64,000 nt of DNA from positions 806,001 through 870,000 of the forward strand of contig NZ_AP023354.1 of NCBI RefSeq assembly GCF_018324685.1, written 5' to 3'. This DNA comes from Actinocatenispora sera (GTDB lineage Bacteria > Actinomycetota > Actinomycetes > Mycobacteriales > Micromonosporaceae). Positions 16,243 through 53,812 of the stretch are shown piece by piece (position 1 is the stretch's first letter; each line of letters opens with the position of its first letter). Position numbers and translations under genes: made by a program. Below the pieces are notes generated by a model, which saw only the letters and a list, made by a program, of their open reading frames with translations, had not been told where the DNA came from and searched no databases.

Positions 16243-16261
16243 GCCGGCCCCGGGCGCGCGG

Positions 16262-16825
16262 TCAGCCGACGGTGACCGCGGGGAGGCGCGCCATCGCGTG
16301 TTCGACCAGCGTGACGAGGGCCGACCGGCACGACGCGGCGTCGCGGGCGTCGAACTCGATCAGCGGTACCGAGGAGTCCTCGAGCTGCAACGCCTCCCGC
16401 ACCTCGGCCAGGGTGTGCCGGCGCCGCCCGTGGAACAGGTTGACCGCCACCACGAACGGCAGGTCCCGCGCCTCGAAGTAGTCGATGGCCGGGAAGCTCG
16501 TGTCCAGCCGCCGCGGGTCGACCAGGATCATCGCGCCGGTGGCACCGCGGGACAGCTCGTCCCACATGAACCAGAACCGGTCCTGCCCCGGGGTACCGAA
16601 CAGGTAGAGCACGAGGTCGTCGGCGATGGTGCGGCGACCGAAGTCCAGCGCCACCGTGGTGGTGGTCTTCGACTCGATCCCGGCCGTGTCGTCGACACCC
16701 TCGCCGATCTGCGTCAGTACCTCCTCGGTGGTCAGCGGCGAGATCTCGGACACCGCGCCGACCAACGTCGTCTTCCCGGTACCGAAGCCACCAGCCACGA
16801 TCACCTTGACCGACTGCGGACCCAC
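16262..16825 (-). CDS. cvnD: Conservon GTPase-like ATP/GTP-binding protein (CvnD), conservon 1
   Basis: This 187-aa Ras-like/MglA-type small GTPase has a P-loop GGFGTGKTT (about residues 12-20), a switch segment rich in Thr (ESKTTTTVALDFG) and FGTPGQDRF in place of the DxxG region. CvnD proteins form a membrane-associated complex with CvnA-C that resembles eukaryotic GPCR-G-protein signalling. The start is GTG at 16825, preceded by AAGGGACGGGG. It is the last gene of the operon, 11 bp after cvnC, and is very similar to the second CvnD at 47315. Confidence 0.93.
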   Translation of the reverse strand: MGPQSVKVIVAGGFGTGKTTLVGAVSEISPLTTEEVLTQIGEGVDDTAGIESKTTTTVALDFGRRTIADDLVLYLFGTPGQDRFWFMWDELSRGATGAMILVDPRRLDTSFPAIDYFEARDLPFVVAVNLFHGRRRHTLAEVREALQLEDSSVPLIEFDARDAASCRSALVTLVEHAMARLPAVTVG

Positions 16826-16836
16826 GCCCCGTCCCT

Positions 16837-17205
16837 TCACATCGCTCGGAGGTGATTGATGACCTTCTGCAGGTCTTCCCGGCTCGGCCGGGTGCGGCGG
16901 TTGGCCGGCGCGCCGATCGCCACCAGCCGCTCCTCCAGCAGGTCGCTCAGGTGCACCCGGATCACGTTCATCGTGGTGTGCAGGTGCGCGGCGATCTCGG
17001 CGACCGACAGCCAGCGGTTCGCCAGCAGCTCGAGGATCTGCGCATGCTCGACCTGCAGCGCGGTCCGGTCGAACGTGCCGGCCGCGCGTACCTGGGTGTC
17101 GAGGCTCAGGGTGTGCCGGGCCCGGGCCCGACCACCGATCCGCGAGTAGTTGTCGAACAGCGGTGCGGCGGACTCGTCCACCCACTGCTCGTCGGCGTTT
17201 TCCAT
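16837..17205 (-). CDS. cvnC: DUF742 protein (CvnC), conservon 1
   Basis: This 122-aa DUF742 protein has an acidic N terminus and then a winged-helix-like C-terminal region (about residues 55-120) with HAQILELLANRWLSVAEI and the predicted recognition helix near 'NVIRVHLSDLLEE'. ATG at 17205 follows AGG; a GTG one codon earlier is equally in frame. It is the third gene of the cvnABCD operon. In conservons CvnC associates with the CvnB/CvnD module; DNA binding is suggested by the fold but is not established. Confidence 0.9.
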   Translation of the reverse strand: MENADEQWVDESAAPLFDNYSRIGGRARARHTLSLDTQVRAAGTFDRTALQVEHAQILELLANRWLSVAEIAAHLHTTMNVIRVHLSDLLEERLVAIGAPANRRTRPSREDLQKVINHLRAM

Positions 17206-17221
17206 CACGACCTGCCTTCGG

Positions 17222-17636
17222 TCACGAGCTCGGTGCGTAGCCGGTCACGACCCGCTGCTCGGCGCTCAGGTGCCGACCGACCTGGGCCACGATCCGGGTC
17301 ATGGAGAACGCCACGTTGCCGAGGTTGACGTCCTCGGCCGGGGTGAGCAGCACCAGGCAGGCGTTCTGCCCGGCGGAGATGATGAACAGGATCCGGTCCT
17401 GCATCTCGATCATCGTCTGCTGCACCGGCCCGCCGTCGACGTACTCGGACTGGGTGATCGCGCGGGACAGGCTGGCCAGCCCGGAGCACTGCGCGGCGAG
17501 CTGGTCGCCGGCGTTCTTGGACAGGCCGCTGGACCGCTGGATGATCAGGCCGTCGGTCGACACCACCGCGGCGCAGACCCCCTCGACGTCCTCGACGAGC
17601 CGATCCAGCAGGTGCACCAGGTGCGGATTCATGACG

Positions 17637-17644
<8 letters not shown>
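17222..17644 (-). CDS. cvnB: Roadblock/LC7-domain protein (CvnB), conservon 1
   Basis: This 140-aa Roadblock/LC7 protein is of the MglB-like type that acts as GTPase-activating or scaffold partner of the small GTPase. The core AAVVSTDGLIIQRSSGL and the later 'ACLVLLTPAEDVNLGNVAFSM' are characteristic. Its start codon overlaps the cvnA stop by 8 bp, showing translational coupling. It is cytoplasmic. Confidence 0.93.
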
Positions 17645-20597
<2,953 letters not shown>

Positions 20598-21129
20598 GAT
20601 GCTCCACAACACGGCCGGTAACGGACATCATGCTGATTCCGTGGTGAGGTGCGCACGGCCCCGTTCAATTCGGACGAAGCCCGCACCCTACTCACGGACA
20701 GGTTGTTCGCGCCACACCCTGTCAGCCCTTCGACGGCCAGGATCGGACCGCCTGTGCGACGCGCCCACTCGCCGGGCATGGCCAGGGGTCGGGAAGCGAA
20801 CGCGGGACGCGCCCTCCCCTCGGGCCGCAGCCGGCCGCCGAGCGTCCGCTCCGCCAGGACTCGAACGCGCCCGATTCCGACCTCTCTCTCGGATATCGCC
20901 AGTATCGTACATAAGTTGATCTTGCTAGGCCTCGCTACGCGCCGGTATCCTCGGCCTTCGCGTCGGTTGGCCCTCGTGGCCGCCCCCGCAGCCACCCTCC
21001 CGACGAACGGGAAGATTACGGGCCGAACGGCTCAGGATCAACGTGACCCCCGAACGACCCGTGGCGTAGCGCACAGCTGCGCCACCGCCCCTGGCCCCGC
21101 CGCGGCGCCCGGAGCAGGGTGACCACGAG
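20598..21129. promoter_or_regulatory. Divergent intergenic region between cvnA and the MFS gene
   Basis: About 530 bp without a credible gene. A local AT-rich patch at 20888-20932 contains TACGAT (minus strand, 20909-20904), a plausible -10 for the cvnABCD operon, giving a long leader of about 300 nt. No clear -35 or terminator is seen. Confidence 0.35.
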
Positions 21130-43624: not shown

Positions 43625-43948
43625 TCAGTCGTGGTCCGGCGCCCCGGTGAGGTGATGCTGGGCGGCGGCGAGGACCTCGTCGACCAGCCGCCGGACGTGG
43701 CCGCCGCGGGCGCGGTAGAGCGCGCGGCGGCCGTCCCGGCGGGTACGCACCAGCCCGGCCAGACGCAGCTTCGCCAGGTGTTGCGACACCGCCGGACGGG
43801 CCGAGCCGGTGGCGGCGGCAAGGCTGCCGACGTCGAGTTCCGCGTCGCGCAGCAGGCACAGCAGCCGCAGCCGGGTCGGATCGGCGAGCAACCGGAGGGC
43901 GGTGGCAGCGGTCTCGATCAGCTCGTCGTCCGGTAGCTGTTGCCGCAT
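43625..43948 (-). CDS. ArsR-family transcriptional regulator
   Basis: This 107-aa winged-helix protein has ADPTRLRLLCLL, the recognition helix region GSARPAVSQHLAKLR and the wing VRTRRDGRRALYRA. Two acidic residues and a His-rich end (HHL, HD) could form a metal site. ATG at 43948 is the conserved family start, but everything upstream of it is the coding remnant of a cation-efflux gene, so its own promoter has apparently been lost or replaced. It would normally sense a metal and repress a divergent exporter. Confidence 0.9.
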   Translation of the reverse strand: MRQQLPDDELIETAATALRLLADPTRLRLLCLLRDAELDVGSLAAATGSARPAVSQHLAKLRLAGLVRTRRDGRRALYRARGGHVRRLVDEVLAAAQHHLTGAPDHD

Positions 43949-43952
43949 CTCG

Positions 43953-44441
43953 GTCGGCCGCCGGATCGGCTCCGCCGCCCTGGTCGCCGACGGCCTGCAC
44001 GCCCGCACCGACGGCTTCACCTCCCTCACCGTACTGCTGGGCGCCGGCGGGGTGGCCATCGGCTGGAGCTGGGCCGATCCCATCGTCGGCCTGGCAATCA
44101 CGGTGGCGATCGCGTTCGTACTCAAGGACGCCGCCCGGGAGATCTACCGCCGGCTGATGGACGCGGTCGACCCCGACCTGGTCGACGCCGCCGAGACCGC
44201 ACTCGCCGCCACCCCCGGCGTCCGCGTCGTGGGCGCGCTGCGGCTGCGGTGGATCGGCCACCGGCTACACGCCGAGACCGACCTGACCGTCGATGCCAGC
44301 CTGTCCGTCCTCGACGCGCACGCCATCGCCGTCGACGCCGAACACGCGCTGCTGCACGCCGTACCGCGACTGTCCGAGGTCACCGTCCACACCGACCCCG
44401 CCACCGACAACGCCCACGAACCGCTCGCCCACCACCGCTAG
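43953..44441 (+). pseudogene. Cation diffusion facilitator (CDF) transporter, N-terminal half missing
   Basis: About 163 residues of a CDF zinc/cobalt exporter remain. They run from VGRRIGSAALVADG through helix V with its metal site HARTD and helix VI (DPIVGLAITVAIAFV), then the cytoplasmic metallochaperone-like domain and a His-rich end. Helices I-IV (about 130 residues) are absent; the recognisable sequence begins about 5 bp from the ArsR start codon. The frame extends further left only through antisense ArsR sequence. A deletion that fused the divergent pair explains this best. Confidence 0.8.
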
Positions 44442-44478: not shown

Positions 44479-44520
44479 GACACTCATCGTGTTGCCGAAA
44501 TCACCCGATGTATGAGTGTC
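44479..44520. repeat. Inverted repeat with 24-nt centre
   Basis: GACACTCAT (44479-44487) and ATGAGTGTC (44512-44520), extendable by CG with a bulge. It lies between the CDF remnant and the DMATS cassette, in a 283-bp gap of visibly lower GC that must contain the cassette promoter. It could be a terminator or an element boundary. Confidence 0.5.
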
Positions 44521-44724
44521 TGGTGATGCGGCGATGGAACTCGCCATGAGCTATTCCGCAACAACCCGCTGCTCCCTATATTGATCCTCATGACGTTTGT
44601 GGCTCACATGGTCGTTGTATCGCCTATCGAGTTCAGAGGCTGAAATGGGCAGTAACCCACCGTTATCTTTGAGCCGTCCGGGGACCGTTTCATTGCTTCG
44701 TATCGGAACAGGCTGTGACCGTCG

Positions 44725-45813
44725 ATGAGCCTGTCGCCATTCACACAGAGGCCCATCCTGGGCCGCGCGATGGGCGAGTACCTCATCGATATCTGGACTA
44801 CGGCGTGTGAAACGCTGGGTCTCGCCGCCGAGCAATGGCAGCCTCCCACGCAGGAGTTGCAGCGGTTGTTGCCCGACTGGGCCGACGACCAGATCCAGGC
44901 GGCGCCCCGCGAGACGTCCTACGTTGCCGATGACGGCTTCCCGGCGGAACTGTCGGCCAACTGGTCGGGGGCGCATCCGGAACTGCGGATGCTCTTCGAC
45001 TGCCTGTCCGATGTCCCGCACCGCGCCGGGGTCACCGACCCCCGATCGAGCCTGTGGTCCGGCTCGTCGCTGTTCACCTCGATCAGCCGGCTCTTCCGGC
45101 AGCCGGTCGCCGCACCGCTGTGGCATTCGATGGCCTGGCGGGCGCCGAATCCGCCGGCGCACAAGGTCTACTTCGGACTGTACGGATGGCCTCTCGCGCG
45201 ACGCGGTGCGGTCGTCGACCGGGCCATGCAGCTGGTGGGTCTGGGTCGGGCCTGGGAGCACGCGCGGCACCGGATCGAGAACGGCGCCCGCTACGGTTCG
45301 CGCGAGATCGAGTTCGTCGGACTCGACATCGGCGACAGCGCGGTGGCACGGGTGAAGATCTACTACCGCCATCAGGGCGTGGACGTCGCCGAGATGAACC
45401 GCGTCGCCTCCGTGGCGTTGCACCACGACGAGGGCCGCGCGCTCGCCGCCTACCGGATGCTGACCGGCGGCCGAGACGACGCCGGTGACGCACCGTTGAC
45501 CTGCCTGGCGTTTCGTTCCGGCTATCAGCAGGCCGTCGAGGCAACGACGTATCTCCGAATGCCGAGCCTGACAACGTGTGAACAGGAGTCGGTCGAGCGC
45601 ACATCCGCGCTGATGGAGTCGGAAGGCGTACCGGCGCAACGGTTCGTGGCGCTGACGGAGGCGTTCTCGCCACGCCGGTCCGACGGCGGCCGCGGTGTGC
45701 TGGAGTTGGTCAGCCATCGCGCCCGCCGCAGCGGCGACGTGACCACCTACTTTCGGTTCCCCACGTTCTCGCAGCCAGCCGCGTTGCCGGTGGCGTCCGC
45801 CCAACGAGCATGA
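44725..45813 (+). CDS. Aromatic prenyltransferase, DMATS (ABBA-fold) type
   Basis: This 362-aa protein resembles bacterial tryptophan/indole dimethylallyltransferases. The substrate-binding N-terminal pattern is ELSANWSGAHPELRMLF, and the alternating basic strands that hold the diphosphate include HKVYFGLYG, ARVKIYYRH, EATTYLRMP and TTYFRFP. The length fits bacterial DMATS enzymes. These soluble, Mg-independent enzymes attach dimethylallyl (or longer) groups to indoles. It is the first gene of a three-gene operon, with 20 bp to the next gene. The ribosome site is weak. Tryptophan or an indole is the likely substrate but is not provable here. Confidence 0.75.
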   Translation: MSLSPFTQRPILGRAMGEYLIDIWTTACETLGLAAEQWQPPTQELQRLLPDWADDQIQAAPRETSYVADDGFPAELSANWSGAHPELRMLFDCLSDVPHRAGVTDPRSSLWSGSSLFTSISRLFRQPVAAPLWHSMAWRAPNPPAHKVYFGLYGWPLARRGAVVDRAMQLVGLGRAWEHARHRIENGARYGSREIEFVGLDIGDSAVARVKIYYRHQGVDVAEMNRVASVALHHDEGRALAAYRMLTGGRDDAGDAPLTCLAFRSGYQQAVEATTYLRMPSLTTCEQESVERTSALMESEGVPAQRFVALTEAFSPRRSDGGRGVLELVSHRARRSGDVTTYFRFPTFSQPAALPVASAQRA

Positions 45814-45833
45814 CCCGTAGAAAGGAGTCCACC

Positions 45834-46493
45834 ATGAGCCAGCCCGACCGCTCGAACGTGGATCGCGTTGCCGAGTACAACAACCAGCGGCAGGAGCAGT
45901 ACCGTGCGTCGCGCCTGTGCCAGCTGCTCCTCGACGACACGGTGGCCGAGGAAACGAAGAAGGCGACATTGCCTCTCCTGCAGCCGTGGTCCAATGCGTT
46001 CCAGCGCATGATCACCGCGCGGGTCCAGGCGGAGGCGTCCCGGATTCAGACCGACCAGGACCCGGAGCTGCTCGCCCTGGCGATCGAGCACTGGCAGGAA
46101 GAGGTCGGCCACAACGACATCCTGAAGCGCAGCCGGGGCGGTACGGACCAGGTCATCTGGGATCCGGTCATCGAGGCGGGTGCGGCGTGGTTCATCGAAC
46201 AGTTCCGCACCCTGCCCGGCATGCAGCGCGCGATGCTGGCCCACCTCGTACTGGAAGCGGGCAGCCTGGTGTTCAGTCAGGCCGGCGTCCGCGCCTTCCC
46301 GCACGACGAGTACTTCGCCAAACACGACGAGGATGACGTCGAGCATCTGGAGATGGGTTATCGGCTGCTGCGAAGCCGATCGGACTGGTCTGTCGACGAG
46401 ATGGTGACGATCATGGATCGGGGCTGGCAGATCATCACCCTGGTGTCCGACCGGATCGCCGAGTGCGCCGTGCGCGACACCGCCGCAGCATGA
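45834..46493 (+). CDS. Heme-oxygenase-like diiron oxidase (HDO) candidate
   Basis: This 219-aa all-helical protein has a spacing of possible iron ligands like CADD/UndA/SznF-type enzymes: EEVGH (ExxH, about residues 92-96), a Glu in VLEAGS (about 146) and DDVEH (Dx3H, about 173-177). Helices predominate throughout. The start is ATG 45834, preceded by a near-perfect AAAGGAG. HDO enzymes oxidise amino acids or fatty acids (desaturation, N-oxidation, nitrile formation). Placement after a prenyltransferase suggests the prenylated amino acid or indole as substrate. The family call rests on motif spacing, so it is moderate. Confidence 0.6.
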   Translation: MSQPDRSNVDRVAEYNNQRQEQYRASRLCQLLLDDTVAEETKKATLPLLQPWSNAFQRMITARVQAEASRIQTDQDPELLALAIEHWQEEVGHNDILKRSRGGTDQVIWDPVIEAGAAWFIEQFRTLPGMQRAMLAHLVLEAGSLVFSQAGVRAFPHDEYFAKHDEDDVEHLEMGYRLLRSRSDWSVDEMVTIMDRGWQIITLVSDRIAECAVRDTAAA

Positions 46494-47305
46494 TCGATAC
46501 AGCACAGGATCGGGCCCGGGGGGTGGCGCTCGGTGCCGCCCGCGTCTGGCAGGCCGCGTTCGGCGAGCGGCTGACCGCGGCGTACCTGCTGGGCAGCCTC
46601 GCCCACGGCGGGTACTCGCCGTCGGCGAGCGACATCGATCTCGGCATCGTCCTTTCCGAGGTGCGGCCCGGCGACCGGCAACTCGCCGACGACTGCGCAA
46701 CCTCGGTGCGGGAGCAGGCCGGACTCTACGGGAAGGTGTCGGCCTTCTGGGCGTCGCTGCCCGCGCTGCGCGACGGCCGGGAGGATGGACGGTTTCCGGC
46801 ACTCGACCGGCTCGATCTGGCAGATCACGGGCAACTGCTGCTCGGCATCGCCGTGCGCGAGGCGGTCGCCCGTCCCGACCGGACCGAGTTGCTGTTGAGC
46901 AGCAGCCGGTTCGCGTTGGAGATCCTCGCGGTACCGGAGGTCGTGGCGGAGTTCCACCAGCCACAGCGGCTGCTGACCGACGTCGTCCTGTTCACCAAGG
47001 CCGTGCTGTTCCCGGTGCGGTTCCTGCACGCGACAGCGGAAGACGGCGGTGCGGTGGGCAACGACGTCGCGCTCGACTGGTACCTCGCGCAGCCCGATCC
47101 CGTCTCGGCGCCGCTCGTGCGGCTCGCGGCGTCGATCCGCGCGGGTGCGGCGCTAGACCCCGACAAGGCGTTGCCGCTCTTGGCCGGCCTCCGCCCGCTG
47201 TACCGGTGCTACATCGACGATCGGGTCGAACGGCTGCGCCTGGCCGGTGCGCCGGACGACCTGATCAGCGGGTTCGCCACCTGGCGAGACCGGTTGCGGG
47301 ACTGA
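46490..47305 (+). CDS. Nucleotidyltransferase-fold protein (Pol beta superfamily)
   Basis: This 271-aa protein has an N-terminal minimal nucleotidyltransferase domain containing LLGSLAHGGYSPSASDID, i.e. the GS...DxD metal and nucleotide motif, followed by a helical C-terminal domain of about 150 residues. Such enzymes transfer NMP to small molecules (as in antibiotic-inactivating adenylyltransferases) or to proteins and RNA. The start ATG overlaps the preceding stop (ATGA), so it is tightly coupled to the HDO gene. In the cassette it may activate the product or provide self-protection, which is inference. Confidence 0.75.
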   Translation: MIDTAQDRARGVALGAARVWQAAFGERLTAAYLLGSLAHGGYSPSASDIDLGIVLSEVRPGDRQLADDCATSVREQAGLYGKVSAFWASLPALRDGREDGRFPALDRLDLADHGQLLLGIAVREAVARPDRTELLLSSSRFALEILAVPEVVAEFHQPQRLLTDVVLFTKAVLFPVRFLHATAEDGGAVGNDVALDWYLAQPDPVSAPLVRLAASIRAGAALDPDKALPLLAGLRPLYRCYIDDRVERLRLAGAPDDLISGFATWRDRLRD

Positions 47306-47314
47306 CAGCGGCGA

Positions 47315-47890
47315 TCACCTGGCTGCCGGTTCCCCGACCACCGGCAGCCGCGCCAAGGCATGTTCGGTCAGGCGGATCAGGGCACGCCGGACCGACTCGC
47401 GATCGCGGGCGTCAAGCCGCACGAACGGCACCTCCGTACCGAGCTTCAACGCGCTGCGGATCTCGTGGTCCTCGTAGGCGCAGACACCGTGAAACATGTT
47501 GACGCCCACCACGTACGGGATGCGACGCGCCTCGAAGTAGTCGATGGCGGCGAAGCTGCTGTTCAGTCGCGCCGGCCGAGGGTCGACGAGCACCAAGGCG
47601 CCCAGCGCACCGAGCGCCAGCTCGTCCCACATGAACCAGAACCGGTCCTGCCCAGGGGTCCCGAACAGGTACAGGACGACTTCTTCGTTGATCGTCCGCC
47701 GGCCGAAGTCCAGGGCAACGGTCGTGTTCGTCTTGCTCTCGACACCGGCGAGGTCGTCCACCGGCTTACTCGCTTCAGTCAACAGCTCCTCGGTGGTCAG
47801 TGGCGGGATCTCGCTCACCGAACCAACGAGCGTGGTCTTGCCGGTGCCGAATCCACCGGCGACCACAATCTTGACCGACTGCGGCTCCAA
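47315..47890 (-). CDS. cvnD: Conservon GTPase-like protein (CvnD), conservon 2
   Basis: This 191-aa MglA/Ras-like protein has P-loop GGFGTGKTT, ESKTNTTVALDFG and FGTPGQDRF, and is clearly paralogous to the CvnD at 16262. The start is a TTG at 47890 supported by AGGAAGGA six bases upstream, and the protein begins EPQSVKIVV, equivalent to GPQSVKVIV in the other copy. It is the last gene of the second cvnABCD operon and is convergent with the nucleotidyltransferase (9 bp apart). Confidence 0.93.
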   Translation of the reverse strand: MEPQSVKIVVAGGFGTGKTTLVGSVSEIPPLTTEELLTEASKPVDDLAGVESKTNTTVALDFGRRTINEEVVLYLFGTPGQDRFWFMWDELALGALGALVLVDPRPARLNSSFAAIDYFEARRIPYVVGVNMFHGVCAYEDHEIRSALKLGTEVPFVRLDARDRESVRRALIRLTEHALARLPVVGEPAAR

Positions 47891-47908
47891 GATCGTTCCT
47901 TCCTCACA

Positions 47909-48283
47909 TCACATGGCGCGCAGGCCGTCAAGGACCTGGACGAGTCTGTCCCGCGTGGGCGCAGCGGAGCTCGTGGTTCCGGAGCTGAGTGCCAGCACGC
48001 CGCGGTCGATCAGATCAGCCAACTGCCTTTTCGTGATCGTCAACGGCACCTTGCCGATCGCAGAGATCTCCGCGACGGTGAGCCATCGTTGACACAGCCG
48101 GAGGATCTGGACCTGATGCGGCTCGAAATAGGTGGGGTCGAGATCCGCCGTCGTCGCTCTCACCATGCTGCCCAGATTCAAGTCACTGGAAATGTCGGCG
48201 GTTGCGCGGCGGCCGGCAACCGCGTAGAGCGGGACCAGCCCGCCGGCGTCATCGTCGACCCATTCGTCATTCTGCCCGGCCAT
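47909..48283 (-). CDS. cvnC: DUF742 protein (CvnC), conservon 2
   Basis: This 124-aa protein shares the CvnC layout: an acidic N terminus (NDEWVDDDAG), a linker, and a winged-helix-like C-terminal half with 'QILRLCQRWLTVAEI'. ATG at 48283 follows GGAAGGA; the frame is open 8 codons further into cvnB. It starts 4 bp after the cvnB stop. Confidence 0.9.
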   Translation of the reverse strand: MAGQNDEWVDDDAGGLVPLYAVAGRRATADISSDLNLGSMVRATTADLDPTYFEPHQVQILRLCQRWLTVAEISAIGKVPLTITKRQLADLIDRGVLALSSGTTSSAAPTRDRLVQVLDGLRAM

Positions 48284-48287
48284 AAGG

Positions 48288-48716
48288 CTATCCTTCCAAA
48301 CCGCCATTCAGGGCGGCTGTCGTGTCGCGAGGCTGCGATCCGAGGTGCACCCCGACACGCTTCACCAGACGGTTCATCTCGTAACCGACCTGGCCGAGAT
48401 CCGCGTTGACATCGGCGAGTACCGCGAGGCACGCATTCGGTCCGGCAGCCGTGATGACCAGGTACGCGTCCTTCATTTCCACGATGGTCTGCTGCATCGG
48501 TCCGCTACCGAACTGCCGGGAAATCCCGCGGGCGATGCTCGCCAGCGAGGAGGCGCGGGCGGCCAGCGAGTCAGCACTGTCCTTGCTGATTCGCCGCGAT
48601 CGCTGGATGAGCATGCCGTCGGTCGACACGGCCACGGCACACAGGGCATTGAGACCATCGACCAGATCGTCCAGCGCCCAGTCGACGTTCATCGGTGTGG
48701 TGGGAGTCTCACTCAT
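48288..48716 (-). CDS. cvnB: Roadblock/LC7-domain protein (CvnB), conservon 2
   Basis: This 142-aa Roadblock/LC7 protein has CAVAVSTDGMLIQRSRRI and 'ACLAVLADVNADLGQVGYEM', the same order as the conservon 1 copy. It is a probable partner and regulator of the adjacent GTPase. It sits 32 bp after cvnA, in contrast to the overlap in conservon 1. Confidence 0.93.
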   Translation of the reverse strand: MSETPTTPMNVDWALDDLVDGLNALCAVAVSTDGMLIQRSRRISKDSADSLAARASSLASIARGISRQFGSGPMQQTIVEMKDAYLVITAAGPNACLAVLADVNADLGQVGYEMNRLVKRVGVHLGSQPRDTTAALNGGLEG

Positions 48717-48748
48717 GATGCTTTGCCGTTTCCTGTCAAGGGGTGTGT

Positions 48749-51253
48749 TCAGTTGTCCTCAGCGCGGCCAGCGTTGCTGCCCTGTTGGAACCGTGCCAAC
48801 CGGTTGCGGATGAGTTCCGGATCTCCCATGTCGATCGCCTGCTCCGGCGTGCCGGGATGCTCCAGATCCTCACGCAGCTGCGGCGCGATGTGCTGCTGCG
48901 GTTGCCGCTCCGGCAGCGGCGGCCGGCCCGGCCGCGCATCGCGCTCGGGGACCTGTGGCTGCTGCCTGATCGCCGTGACCCGCGCCGGCGGCTCCACACC
49001 GATGTCCCGAGCACCCAACGAAGCGTGCCCCGTACCGGGCTGGATGCGCGGGGCCGGGCTGACCGGCCGAGCGGTCGGCGCAGGGCGGTGCGCCGAGCCG
49101 CTGTCGAGCCGGTGCGCGGCACCGTTCGTCGACAGGCCGGGGCGTCGCGGCGCGGGCGGGGCACCGACGAACGCGGGCATCTGCATCGTCTGCTCGACAT
49201 CGCGCGGCACATCCACACTCTCGGCCATGCGGGAGATGTCGCCACTGCGGTCGGCTGCGTTGTCCAGCTGTGCCTTGGGAATCAAGACGACCGCCAGCAC
49301 GCCGCCGTAGGGCGAGGTGGTCAGCGTCACCGTGATCCCGAGCTGCTTGGCGAGTTGCGCGACGACCCAGAACCCCAACTGCGACCCGTCGCCCAACGCG
49401 TTGACGTTGAACTCCGGCGCCTGCTTGAGCATCGCGTTGGCCTGGTCGAGATCCTCGGGCGCCATGCCGATCCCTCGGTCCTCGACCTCGATGGCAATAC
49501 CCCGGTCCACGTACACACCACGCACCCGCACGTCCGACTCGGTGCTGGAGAAGCCGATGGCGTTGTTGAGAAGCTGCGTGAGCAGATGGATGGTCCCGTT
49601 CACGGCGTCGCCCCGCACCCGAACCTCGGGCGCGGTCTCCAGCTTGACCCGGTCGTAGTCCTCGGCCTGCGCCTTGGCAGCCTGCATCACCTGCAGCAGC
49701 GGAATGGGCGTCTGGAACTTCCGCCCCGGCTTACCGCCACCGAGGATGATCAGGCTCTCGTTGACGCCCCGCACCTGGTTGACCCGGTGATGGACCCGGA
49801 ACCACTTCTCCAGACGGGCGGGGTCTTCCTCCGCCCGCTCTTCGGCATCGAGTGCACGGCTCGCCTGCTGCAGCGGACGCTGGTTGCGGTATGCGATGCC
49901 GAGGAACACACGCAGTACCCCGGCGCGCGCCTGGCCCTCACTCACCACGGCGTCGGCAGCAAGCACGACGGCGTCGTTGAGCGTCTTCCGCACGTTGTCG
50001 ATCTCGTCCTGTCCCTGTTCGGCTTCCTCGTCAGCAGCCGAGTTGATCTGGCCCAACTCCTCACGCACGTTGACCCGCTCACCCGCCGCCAGTCGTTCCC
50101 GGATCGCCGGGAAGCGCGTCCGCACGATGAGGTTGGCGTCCTCACCGAGCTGGCGGATACGAGGGATCAGCGTCCGGCCGACCAGAACACTGGACCGGCG
50201 CAGGGCCCACAGAATCGCCAGGGCCACCACCGCAGCCGCGGCAACACTGCCGCCGATCGCCCAGCCGAGGTTCTGGTTTCCGCTGGCCAGCCCCTGCGCG
50301 GAGACCTCGTCGGCCTGCGACTTGGCCAGCTCGATCAGGTCGTTGGAGACCTGGTCCGTCAGCTTGCCCCACGCCGCCGAATCCACCGGAAGCCCGGTGG
50401 GGACGCCGCCTTGCCAGGCACCGTCGGCCAGGATCGCGTCCTCCGCGGCGGACAGGCGGGACCATTCGTCGCTGCGCATCATGCGACGGACTCCGGCACG
50501 AACGTCCGGAAGCAGATCCGCCTCGACGTTGCTCAGCTGCGAACGGTAGGCGCCGACCAGTTGGACGTACGTCAGGTAGTCGTTCGTGCTGAACTTCTTC
50601 GCGGCGAAGGCACCGGCGGCCTGAGATCCCGCACGCGACATCAGGTCGGACACCCGGAACAGGTCCGTGGCGGCGAAGCCACCCTGCGACGCGGTTGCGT
50701 CGGGGATGATCCGCGCCTGGGTGTTGAACAGTTGAATGGAAGCGTCGAGGATCTTGTTGTAGAACGCGTAGACGTTCTGCGGGCTGATGGTTCTCGCGTC
50801 GATCTGCGCACGGACCTTCGGCAGCTCGTGGAGGTAGCCCGTGACGGTCGCCATCTGGTCCTTGATCGACGCGGGGGCGCTGCCCAGTGCTGCCTTCGCG
50901 GCGTTCTGCATCGAGGCCAGGCCCTCGTCGCTGGTCGCGCGTTGCGCGTTCAGCGACCGTGTTCCCGCCGGCGTCCCCGCCGAGTTGGCCAGCTCGGCCA
51001 TGCTCAGCTGACGTTCCTTCTGCAAGGAGGCGAGGCCGTTCACTGCAGGGATCGACACCTGCCGCACGCTCGAAGCCACCTGGCGCGCATAGACTCCGGT
51101 GTAGCCCAGGTACGAGGCGCCAACCAGCCACAACGCGATCAACGCGACGCTGGGAACCAGCGCGACGCGGACAACACCTTGCCGGATCGATCGTTGGCGC
51201 CGCGGCCGGCGGTCGCGACCCGCCTGGCGCTGATGGGTCTGCTGACTAGTCAT
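48749..51253 (-). CDS. cvnA: Conservon sensor histidine-kinase-like protein (CvnA), conservon 2
   Basis: This 834-aa protein has the same architecture as the CvnA at 17637: a membrane helix (about 30-53), a NIT-type extracytoplasmic domain, a second helix (about 325-347), and a GHKL ATPase with LLNNAIGF and EDRGIGM. The disordered tail is shorter and Pro/Arg/Gln-rich. The canonical phospho-acceptor region reads RNQRPLQQAS, again without the expected His. ATG at 51253 follows GGAG by four bases. No P450 or other conservon-associated enzyme follows. The nearest neighbours are the convergent DMATS cassette and, upstream, a tRNA. Confidence 0.92.
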   Translation of the reverse strand: MTSQQTHQRQAGRDRRPRRQRSIRQGVVRVALVPSVALIALWLVGASYLGYTGVYARQVASSVRQVSIPAVNGLASLQKERQLSMAELANSAGTPAGTRSLNAQRATSDEGLASMQNAAKAALGSAPASIKDQMATVTGYLHELPKVRAQIDARTISPQNVYAFYNKILDASIQLFNTQARIIPDATASQGGFAATDLFRVSDLMSRAGSQAAGAFAAKKFSTNDYLTYVQLVGAYRSQLSNVEADLLPDVRAGVRRMMRSDEWSRLSAAEDAILADGAWQGGVPTGLPVDSAAWGKLTDQVSNDLIELAKSQADEVSAQGLASGNQNLGWAIGGSVAAAAVVALAILWALRRSSVLVGRTLIPRIRQLGEDANLIVRTRFPAIRERLAAGERVNVREELGQINSAADEEAEQGQDEIDNVRKTLNDAVVLAADAVVSEGQARAGVLRVFLGIAYRNQRPLQQASRALDAEERAEEDPARLEKWFRVHHRVNQVRGVNESLIILGGGKPGRKFQTPIPLLQVMQAAKAQAEDYDRVKLETAPEVRVRGDAVNGTIHLLTQLLNNAIGFSSTESDVRVRGVYVDRGIAIEVEDRGIGMAPEDLDQANAMLKQAPEFNVNALGDGSQLGFWVVAQLAKQLGITVTLTTSPYGGVLAVVLIPKAQLDNAADRSGDISRMAESVDVPRDVEQTMQMPAFVGAPPAPRRPGLSTNGAAHRLDSGSAHRPAPTARPVSPAPRIQPGTGHASLGARDIGVEPPARVTAIRQQPQVPERDARPGRPPLPERQPQQHIAPQLREDLEHPGTPEQAIDMGDPELIRNRLARFQQGSNAGRAEDN

Positions 51254-52386
51254 TGCGCTCCATCAACAACGGTTGACATATTGCAAGCGCGTGCCCCCGC
51301 ACCGGCGCCGTTCCCGCCCACACACTGTGCCGCCACGTCGTACGAGCCCACCGACCCGCGTTCACGATCGCCGTCGAGGCCTCAGCCACCCTCAACGAGG
51401 CAAGGCAGCCCCAATGACGGTGTTGACGGAACTGTGGCGAGTTGTGCCATGCACGGCCCCGCACTCTACCCTGTCCGAAATCGCGCCAGACACCTCCCGC
51501 GCGCGCCTCGGCGGCCCCAGCAGCCGCCACCGCCGCGTGCCGAGCCTGGCATTACAACACCGATACGGGCCGTGCGTAGCCCGGCAACCTGCCTTGATCG
51601 GACCCGGCCGGGACGCCGTCGAGAGTCACGGCTGGCCACGCTGGTCAACCCGCACGACGGCGGCGCGCGAGCCCACCGCCGACCACAGTCACGTGTTCAA
51701 CCTCACCCCCAACGAGGGGCTCAGGCGCTCGCAAACACGCCAGCACGCCCTGCCGACGCGATTCAGATGACGAACATCTCGAGCCCAGTATTTGAGACGA
51801 CGCGGCTGCCCGGCCAGCGACCAGCGCAGTCAGGCCGGGATTCTTGGCGTCGTCGTCGCGGACATCCCCCAGCAACCGAACGGGGACCCGATTCTCAACT
51901 GTTCGTAAAGCTTCCTTCGCTAATATCTCGTCCCGAGAAATGAGGCGGGCGCCGCCGCTGCTGAAGATGCGAATCCACCGACGGCGGCACCGGCAATCCT
52001 GGGCATGCTCCCGGTGACTGGCACACGGCGGGTCCAGCCGGTGGATGCCTCACCTGCGGCGCGGGAACGGGCGCGCGCTGGGCGCCTTCACGAGGCAGCC
52101 AGTGGTGGCGGGCGGAGCAGTGGCTGTCGTACGGCGGCCCGATCCACGCCGACCCCAGGACCGTCCATGCCACCCCGACCACGACCCAGGTGGCACCCGC
52201 TGAACGGCACGCGGCGAGCCGCACCGCATCTCCGTGCCACGACAGCGGCACCAGCCGCTGCTCGCACCGCCCCGCCGGGGGTGTCGCACCGCCCAGGCAA
52301 CGCCGTGACCAGCACAGATACGCACCCTCAGGCGTGTGGACCGCGTACCCGGCCACCTCGAGCTTTGAGGTAGCCTGTCCCATGCC
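51254..52386. other. Gene-poor region between cvnA and tRNA-Lys
   Basis: About 1.1 kb with mixed base composition and no convincing gene. A minus-strand frame at 51895-52383 (162 codons) is open but covers the tRNA promoter, lacks a ribosome site and has no recognisable domain. A TAGCCT hexamer at 52371-52376, ten bases before the tRNA, is its likely -10. Confidence 0.5.
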
Positions 52387-52459
52387 GGGTCGCTAGCTCA
52401 ATTGGCAGAGCTGCGGACTTTTAATCCGTAGGTTGTGGGTTCGAGTCCCACGCGACCCA
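52387..52459 (+). tRNA. tRNA-Lys (anticodon UUU)
   Basis: A 73-nt cloverleaf: acceptor GGGTCGC/GCGACCC, D-arm with TAGCTCAATTGG, anticodon loop CTTTTAA (anticodon TTT), T-arm GGGTTCGAGTCCC and discriminator A. CCA is not encoded. tRNA 3' ends are common integration sites, and remnants of an integrase lie 0.7-1.4 kb downstream. Confidence 0.97.
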
Positions 52460-53190
52460 CCCTCTGACCTGAGAAAACACCCTCATGGGCCAGTTTCCGT
52501 GGTGCTCGGGGTCGGCCCGAGGTCCCTGGTTATGCCAGTTTTCGACCGGTTTCACGTTGAGTCATAACATGGCTTTGACCTGCGGGAACGCTGTAATCGC
52601 CGGCGCGATTATCCGTCTGATGCTACACGCCGCCCTTCGCCCTGACATCTCGTTGACTGGGCGAGGCTCGCCATTTCTTTGCCGCTAGTGCCGTTGACGC
52701 GGCCCGATTTGGGAATTCTCTTACGTCGCCGTGACCTTCCTGCGCTTCAGGCCCAGCAACGCGCAATGCCGAAAAAGAGCATTCACGATTCGCGCGACGT
52801 AATCGCCGCGATATTGGCGAATGGCCAAAGGGCGAACCGTTGAGGTCCCCAATCGAGCTCCAGCGGCCCGGCAAACTCCTACTGGACCGGCCAGAGCGAT
52901 CCTGCTGCGCTGCGCGATCAGCATGCGGGGCCCGACAGTCCGAGGCGAGCCCGTGAGATCAGCCGAAGGCCACGGAGTGATTCGACCGGTATGGGAGGTC
53001 TGATCCACACCTTTGTGCGACACCCTGTCGTATTAAAGGGGGTCGCTGGCAATAGGTAGTGGGTGCACGGGCAGCGCCAGCGCTGGCATGCCTCATCCGA
53101 AGACCGCTCCAACAAAGCCGTAGAACACCTGGCACGAGCGGATGTCGTCGACGGACCTGCAGCGTGATGCACACCAGAGGAACCTCACCA
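52460..53190. other. Non-coding region between tRNA-Lys and the xis/int remnant
   Basis: About 730 bp of lower GC than its surroundings with no supported gene. It is probably residue of an integrated element. No second copy of the tRNA 3' end (GGGTTCGAGTCCC) is visible downstream. Confidence 0.45.
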
Positions 53191-53812
53191 ATGAGTGCGA
53201 TGCGACCTGCGCGCCGAGTGCGGCGCTTGGACGACGTCCGCCGGCTGGGCGTGACGACCAGCCTGGCCACCGCCGCGCAGATCCTGGGAGGCTGCTACCC
53301 TACGGCCCGGCGTCTCGCGGTGGCCGGGACGTTCCCCATCCCGGCAATCCGTCTCGGACGACGTTGGAGCGTACCCACCGAACCGCTTATCGCTCTGCTG
53401 ACGACCAGACTGTCGCCGCCCTCAAGCGATACCGCGCCCACGCGCAGCCGAACGTACCGCTGCAGGCGATGCGTGGACCGAGACCGGGCTGCTGTTCGTC
53501 AACCCGGACGGCACCACACTGCACCCATCTCGCATCACCGACGCGTTCGCCATCTACCTGCGCCGAGCCGGACTCCCGCCGATCCAACTCCGCGACTTGC
53601 GGCACGGCACCGCAACCCTCACGCTCGCCGCCGGCATCGAGATTCGAACCGTCTCCGCGATGCTGCGACACTCCTCGATCGCGGTGACCGGCCTCTACTC
53701 CAGCGTGACCACCGGGCTCGCCCACGAGGCAGCGCCAACCATCAACGATGCGCCCCGGGCCCGCTGGAGAGGCCGTCACGGCCGGCGAACCGCGCCACAA
53801 CAGCAACGCTGA
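53191..53812 (+). pseudogene. Decayed excisionase plus tyrosine-integrase remnant
   Basis: ATG 53191 (after AGAGGAA) opens an excisionase-like helix-turn-helix of about 70 residues ('SLATAAQILGGCYPTARRLA ... RLGRRWSVP'). The sequence then runs into the 3' third of a tyrosine recombinase in other frames: 'TVAALKRYRAHA' in one, and from about 53450 AERTAAGDAW... through LRDLRHGTATLTLAAG (catalytic Arg and His) to LRHSSIAVTGLYSSV (His and Tyr nucleophile) in another, ending at 53812. About two thirds of the integrase is missing and at least one frameshift is present. It is the footprint of an actinomycete integrative plasmid or ICE beside tRNA-Lys. Confidence 0.8.

Follow-up and report, generated by a model that had tools for sequence, protein, structure and literature searches.

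The right precedent for the locus described here, in which a DMATS-type indole prenyltransferase gene, two further enzyme genes and a conservon lie together in a 64,000-nucleotide stretch of DNA from the soil actinomycete Actinocatenispora sera (hereafter the window), is the conservon-linked Type A and Type B indole prenyltransferase clusters. Clusters of the IptA type carry a conservon (Ozaki, Nishiyama and Kuzuyama 2013, PMC3617294). In Type A clusters IptA is accompanied by a tryptophanase and the product is 6-dimethylallylindole-3-carbaldehyde. In Type B clusters SCO7467 forms 5-dimethylallyl-tryptophan, the flavin monooxygenase (FMO) SCO7468 converts this to the acetaldoxime, and the acetonitrile follows through an enzyme that was left unidentified (PMC3617294). 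Both conservon-linked prenyltransferases, IptA and SCO7467, act on free tryptophan, and a link between product and conservon was suggested by the same authors. Elsewhere the Cvn8 conservon represses its adjacent biosynthetic cluster (PMC13343842), and some other conservons have a P450 or GAF accessory gene (PMC8510531). The second precedent is the heme-oxygenase-like dimetal oxidases (HDOs), of which about a dozen have been functionally validated, mostly with unprecedented oxidations, and which include N-oxygenases (PMC13108848). Among them AetD is a diiron nitrile synthase (PMC10654658, PMC11611611) and SktA forms bromoskatole (PMC13108848).

A seven-gene islet combines three enzyme genes with a conservon

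Our best explanation is that the three enzyme genes and the conservon form a seven-gene islet, a three-enzyme pathway with its own G-protein-like signalling unit, and we give this explanation as a whole, catalytic steps included, a probability of roughly two in three (about 0.68). The trio lies on the plus strand and encodes a DMATS-type indole prenyltransferase of 362 aa (44725-45813, ATG start), an HDO candidate of 219 aa (45834-46493, ATG start) and a Pol-beta-type nucleotidyltransferase (NTase) of 271 aa (46490-47305). An earlier note made from the sequence alone had described these genes as tightly packed, and this was confirmed: a 20-bp spacer with the ribosome-binding site AAAGGAG (45814-45833) separates the first two and an ATGA overlap joins the second and third. 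An in-frame ATG at 45810, overlapping the DMATS stop, is an alternative start for the HDO gene. The conservon converges on the trio from the minus strand with 9 bp between the CvnD end and the NTase stop, and consists of CvnD, a small GTPase (47315-47890, PF03029 3.3e-26), CvnC, a DUF742 protein (47909-48307, PF05331 5.1e-18), CvnB, a Roadblock/LC7 protein (48288-48716, PF03259 2.5e-18), and CvnA, a sensor of 834 aa with NIT and HATPase domains (48749-51253, PF08376 5.3e-35 and PF02518 1.2e-11). All seven genes lie within a 7.3-kb block (44499-51778) also present in A. comari, whose loci L005 and L036 were aligned with the window by blastn (87% identity). They are the only genes of at least 70 aa called in this block, and no tryptophanase gene as in Type A or FMO gene as in Type B is among them. 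The earlier note had placed the trio between a decayed CDF gene and a convergent conservon; the decay was evident, but the conservon is not an outer boundary, as the unit runs from 44499 to 51778.

The trio is conserved in order and strand

A contig scan seeded with the 219-aa HDO alone returned 34 candidate stretches, 25 of which encode a relative. DMATS, HDO and NTase were found in the same order and on the same strand in all 25 of these loci (with the NTase frameshifted in L009), and the co-occurrence in other genomes on which the earlier note had staked its proposal is thus present. Because the scan used the HDO alone, with patterns reaching only close relatives, this count holds for HDO relatives of at least 56% identity; the more distant HDOs of L003 and L004 (52-56%) and of Embleya had no NTase match. 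By record title, fifteen loci are from Amycolatopsis, three from Kibdelosporangium, two from Plantactinospora and one each from Actinocatenispora, Actinoplanes, Pseudonocardia and Streptacidiphilus. The remaining one, L006 (JOAA01000020.1), is titled Rhodococcus rhodnii NRRL B-16535, but 19.5 of its 20.6 kb, flanks included, aligns with Kibdelosporangium aridum (L011) at a mean of 88%. It is most likely Kibdelosporangium under a wrong name, and we therefore count seven genera and claim no transfer into Rhodococcus.

Identities to the window across the 25 loci were 40-84% for DMATS, 56-93% for the HDO and 47-84% for the NTase. When compared with A. comari, dN/dS was 0.19 for DMATS, 0.10 for the HDO and 0.32 for the NTase (range 0.02-0.32 over the four genes compared), demonstrating purifying selection on these genes. 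The kept order and strand together with the low dN/dS indicate that the association is more than chance.

The trio is nevertheless rare and patchy. The HDO profile was matched in 1 of 396 genomes of a phylum sample (the window's own), in 3 of 298 genomes of the order (its own included) and in 6 of 200 genomes of the family of G501 (G501 included). Three of the four genomes of the genus had an HDO match, one of them (G002) with a second kind of cassette only. This second kind, found in genome G001 (L034, 8754-11456), consists of a methyltransferase, an HDO (52-55%) and a DMATS (PF11991 2.9e-12) with an AAA/LuxR regulator upstream on the opposite strand, and no NTase or conservon match was detected in the 12.3 kb of L034. 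G001 (A. comari) carries both this cassette and the trio, and the cassette may encode another prenylindole pathway. L035 likewise combines an HDO with a DMATS-like match.

The conservon belongs to the unit

A conservon was found beside the trio in 24 of the 25 loci, with CvnA, CvnB and CvnD matched in every one of the 24 (CvnC gave no tblastn match above 60 bits in L007, L014 and L027). It was convergent in 4 loci, downstream and collinear in 3 and upstream and collinear in 17, and in L012 it was inverted inside a stretch otherwise collinear with the Kibdelosporangium-like loci L006, L011 and L017. In a CvnD tree of 55 rows, 28 trio-linked rows grouped with the CvnD of a Type A cluster (L047) and with a second conservon of the window, present as two copies of one row, at a support of 96/93, and the other 24 rows fell outside. 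The 28 rows include identical sequences and near-copies, and the bootstrap stopped short of convergence (0.971). The tree omits L001, L002, L031, L032, L033, L036, L039, L046 and L075 as well as matches below 120 bits or with a query span below 150, and 30 of 44 CvnD places became loci, so that it does not hold the full set of conservons of those genomes. The Type A cluster, so assigned by gene content, is in a genome of the window's own family (L076).

The position beside the trio in 24 of 25 loci, the three arrangements, the CvnD group and the shared 7.3-kb block place the conservon in one unit with the trio. The two are co-inherited, and we infer that the conservon senses or controls the pathway.

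The DMATS and HDO genes

The first gene had been called a DMATS prenyltransferase in the earlier note, and this identity is firm: the protein matched PF11991 over the cut-off (2.2e-8, 34.3 bits against a cut-off of 25), and its best PDB match was MpnD (4yl7; E 7.4e-28 with the single sequence and 2.9e-44 with a profile). It scored below the cut-off of TIGR03429 arom_pren_DMATS (49.9 against 163.85). E86, R88, K147, Y149, R209, K211, Y213 and Y276 were invariant in all 26 sequences (the window and the 25 loci) and presumably have the roles that these positions play in DMATS enzymes. As no peptide-making gene was seen conserved with the trio, MpnD was set aside as a guide to the substrate. Two DMATS relatives were found in a plasmid collection, one of 42% identity in Streptomyces sp. 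SAT1 and one of 27% in Embleya, the latter about 2 Mb from an HDO in the same record. The SAT1 gene (L041, 7502-10870) lies between a class V aminotransferase and a methyltransferase with no HDO or conservon match in the surrounding 19 kb, and therefore DMATS alone does not predict the trio.

The 219-aa protein alone had no Pfam, NCBIfam or PDB sequence match. Profile searches of the PDB returned COP9 and Symplekin, both unrelated, and no HDO, and the identification therefore rests on fold and ligands. Structure prediction gave a heme-oxygenase-like seven-helix bundle, the fold that the earlier note had set beforehand as its test. The best structural match was AetD, which occupied ranks 1-11 among the 50 rows listed (one protein in many entries, ranked by VIA-align 2 over the Foldseek list); SznF was absent among these rows. 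E90, H93, E141, H164, D168 and H171, the predicted ligands, were invariant in 28 of 28 HDO sequences and lie at or in helices of the model. By sequence and helix position, these three histidines and three carboxylates match the ligand set of the HDO superfamily. Of the metal site foreseen in the earlier note (ExxH, Glu, Dx3H), E90xxH93 and E141 were retained, but the aspartate of Dx3H is not conserved, position 167 being alanine in 24 of 28 sequences, and the invariant pattern is instead H164-x3-D168-x2-H171. PF14518 was matched at E<=1 by 25 of the 28 rows (best 6.9e-5). A ferritin-like or TenA-only reading was rejected; the PF22277 EncFtn-like and PF19138 matches were weak, TenA structures scored below AetD (at most 18.1 among the 50 rows), and the six invariant ligands favor a metal oxidase. 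The protein is a candidate for binding a dimetal cluster and activating O2.

An HDO relative of 41.6% identity on an Embleya plasmid has a cupin domain fused in front (L030, 11566-12615), whereas in SznF the cupin is behind the HDO. It adjoins a zinc alcohol dehydrogenase and, by eye, an aldehyde-dehydrogenase/MaoC-like gene.

In 6 of the 25 loci (the three Kibdelosporangium loci, L006 and the two Plantactinospora loci) no stop codon separates DMATS from HDO and the two share a frame. Within the family of G501, four genomes that belong to a single genus also had open frames of 585-589 aa at the HDO; they may be the same species again as the fused loci. The linkers in four of the six read like translated ribosome-binding sites (DRKEP in L006, L011 and L012, DREEP in L017), and the two genes seem to have been joined through stop loss, with one protein or two as the possible outcome. 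Both trees split the fused rows into two groups, but poor branch support leaves room for a single origin, and the starred branches require no more than one origin of the fusion.

The nucleotidyltransferase gene

By single-sequence comparison the third gene is weakly recognizable as a Pol-beta-type nucleotidyltransferase, with the GS...DxD motif of that type present (GSLAHGG...SDIDL). G35, S36, D48 and D50 were invariant in 21 of 21 aligned sequences (the window and 20 of the 25 loci; L009, L015, L016, L021 and L024 were left out of the alignment). The window protein scored just under the PF01909 NTP_transf_2 cut-off (20.7 against 21 bits), the proteins of those five loci also fell below it, and the PF18765 match of the window protein was sub-threshold as well; 18 and 20 of the 21 aligned homologues matched PF01909 and PF18765, respectively, at E<=1. 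An NTase profile matched AadA (7uy4) at 6.2e-5 over the whole sequence with no single stretch significant. The protein fell far below every NCBIfam cut-off, the ANT(9)/AadA models included (best 25.8 against 505), and an MntA antitoxin model was also weakly matched. Nine of the 298 genomes of the order had NTase matches and three of these are trio genomes; no relative was found in the plasmid collection. At L108 (2075-2874) a relative is present in two pieces in different frames, beside genes that by eye are IS-like transposases.

Surroundings of the islet

Two A. comari stretches of 20.7 and 19.0 kb, covering the same region (L005, L036), were compared with the window. Outside 44499-51778 nothing in their flanks matched the window, apart from a resemblance to its second conservon. 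Genome G001 (A. comari) has the islet on contig 45. The sequences most like the flank upstream in the window and like window positions 52.4-53.8 kb lie in pieces on contig 128, and the best match of the part after 53.8 kb is on contig 3. A tRNA-Lys (TTT) gene lies just downstream of the islet (52387-52461), followed by the C-terminal remnant of a phage-type integrase (53597-53812, PF00589 0.0023, below the cut-off), as at an integration site. From its sequence surroundings the islet looks transferred and is probably transferable.

The CDF cation-efflux gene upstream (43625-44441) encodes the C-terminal half only (PF01545 profile positions 123-198 of 198) and overlaps an ArsR-type open reading frame (ORF) of opposite orientation. 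Two window pieces that adjoin each other here match two further genomes of the genus at sites separated by about 0.66-0.72 kb, which would fit a loss of sequence from the window.

The window's second conservon (16250-20612, minus strand), whose CvnD falls in the trio-linked group, is neighbored by a GDSL lipase and an MFS transporter, and no DMATS was recognized beside it.

Proposed pathway and alternative explanations

In the pathway that we propose, DMATS would prenylate the indole ring of free tryptophan with dimethylallyl diphosphate (DMAPP); tryptophan is chosen because no conserved substrate-making gene was seen and because IptA and SCO7467 use it. The HDO would bind two irons, with the amino acid part of prenyl-tryptophan ligating Fe1, and would use O2 to oxidize and degrade the side chain, by analogy with the action of AetD (giving a nitrile) and SktA (giving a skatole) on bromo-tryptophans; this step is suggested by the fold, the ligand set and the one-frame linkage to DMATS. 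The product may be a prenylindole nitrile, an aldoxime or a shortened indole, the nitrile being one of three outcomes (carbonitrile, skatole-like, or aldoxime/acetonitrile). Judged by its motif, the NTase would then nucleotidylate the product, a pathway intermediate or a protein, and the conservon would sense or control the pathway.

Several observations count against this proposal. The trio of L028 has no conservon within 20.6 kb, and the NTase frame of L009 (10615-11431, Amycolatopsis sp. 2-2) is broken near the C-terminus, through either a sequencing error or a broken gene. MpnD, the best PDB match of DMATS, is an indolactam prenyltransferase. The HDO is only 11% identical to AetD, its ligand equivalence with AetD was judged from spacing, not geometry, and the gathering cut-off of PF14518 Haem_oxygenas_2 (28.9 bits) was reached by none of the nine family proteins scanned with cut-offs. 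The Embleya cupin-HDO has no trio partner in 24.6 kb, and the HDO family as a whole is therefore not tied to prenyl-tryptophan. All six fused loci keep a GGAG-, AGGAA- or AGGAT-like site followed by GTG or ATG, so that two polypeptides are still possible. No other gene family shared across genera was found beside the trio, but the gene caller used was crude, calling DMATS in 21 loci and the HDO in only 10, although all 25 have both, and a further conserved gene may therefore have escaped it.

The alternative that survives best concerns the NTase, which could well, at somewhat less than even odds, be a self-protection enzyme that inactivates the islet's own product as aminoglycoside adenylyltransferases do, or could AMPylate a protein partner, for instance the HDO or CvnD. 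The weak likeness to ANT(9)/AadA and to the MntA model is consistent with this, as are the relatives of 34-39% identity in five of the six non-trio genomes (G478 left out), which by tblastn lack DMATS and HDO homologues nearby and whose neighboring called ORFs include no conservon homologue. Presence in all 25 trio loci, L009 with its frameshift included, and the ATGA overlap with the HDO gene in the window also fit a pathway step.

It is unlikely that the HDO is an N-oxygenase, hydroxylating prenyl-tryptophan twice on nitrogen to give the acetaldoxime and then prenylindole-3-acetonitrile, the kind of product reached through the Type B FMO, with the NTase activating the oxime for nitrile formation with AMP as leaving group, which would supply the dehydratase step that Type B leaves open. 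The conservon and DMATS context is that of Type B, whose FMO makes an aldoxime and whose dehydratase is unidentified (PMC3617294), N-oxygenases occur among HDOs (PMC13108848), and E67, which all 28 sequences have, might provide an additional carboxylate.

We also doubt that the substrate is something other than prenyl-tryptophan, whether because DMATS prenylates a small peptide or a different aromatic compound or because the HDO acts before prenylation. The MpnD match, the Embleya HDO homologue with no DMATS nearby and the AetD crystal structures with tyrosine and phenylalanine (by structure titles) point that way. However, the shared block holds no further gene of at least 70 aa, no other cross-genus family was found with the crude caller, the conservon-linked IptA and SCO7467 use free tryptophan (PMC3617294), and the shared DMATS-HDO frame argues for consecutive steps.

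A bolder version is a long shot: a transferable signalling islet in which a fused polypeptide prenylates tryptophan, its diiron site turns this by rearrangement into a compound such as a prenylindole nitrile, the NTase either attaches a nucleotide to the prenylindole or has AMP serve as leaving group, and the small product is the cue for CvnA. If true, the islet would hold a novel bifunctional enzyme and, to our knowledge, the first prenyl-tryptophan HDO, and it would supply a conservon with its ligand. Hitch-hiking of the conservon beside the trio, suggested by the 15 non-independent Amycolatopsis loci of 25, by L028 and by two conservons in one window, is quite improbable: 24 of 25 loci have the conservon, in three arrangements and with one inversion among the Kibdelosporangium loci themselves, its CvnD has a group of its own, and conservon and prenyltransferase are also paired in the Type A and Type B clusters (PMC3617294; L076).

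Under the seven-gene pathway that we prefer, an HDO candidate is encoded in one operon, or one frame, with the enzyme that probably makes its substrate, so that tryptophan, DMAPP and the two purified proteins would suffice to look for its reaction. Counting Types A and B as well, at least three different enzymes (a tryptophanase, an FMO and a diiron oxidase candidate) seem to have been placed after conservon-linked prenyltransferases, as though the prenylindole mattered to the conservon. What conservon sensors respond to is still largely open (PMC13343842).

Comparison with known systems

The earlier note knew of no described pathway with this trio, in agreement with our search of open PMC papers, which found none naming DMATS with an HDO or the trio itself. 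The DMATS shares PF11991 and the conserved charged and tyrosine positions with MpnD (4yl7), CymD, TleC and other bacterial DMATS, enzymes that belong to peptide pathways. The NTase resembles ANT(9)/AadA and MntA-type nucleotidyltransferases in its GS...DxD motif and is close to AadA in size, with the NCBIfam models far below cut-off. The HDO shares its fold with AetD and, with AetD and SktA, the six-ligand pattern [DE]xxH / E / Hx3[DE]x2H and, by spacing, two aromatic residues in the helix that precedes the first ligands; SktA was likened by description only. The known substrates of both enzymes are ring-substituted tryptophans, and both work in the context of brominating enzymes, whereas the window HDO is actinobacterial and prenyltransferase-linked.

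With the Type A and Type B clusters the islet shares CvnA-D beside a DMATS, followed by an enzyme that acts, or in the window would act, on the amino acid part of prenyl-tryptophan. It differs in having an HDO candidate and an NTase instead, with one-frame DMATS-HDO forms in relatives and a conservon that is not always upstream. We therefore regard the islet as a probable third type among conservon-linked indole prenyltransferase clusters, one with an AetD-like oxidase candidate and a nucleotidyltransferase.

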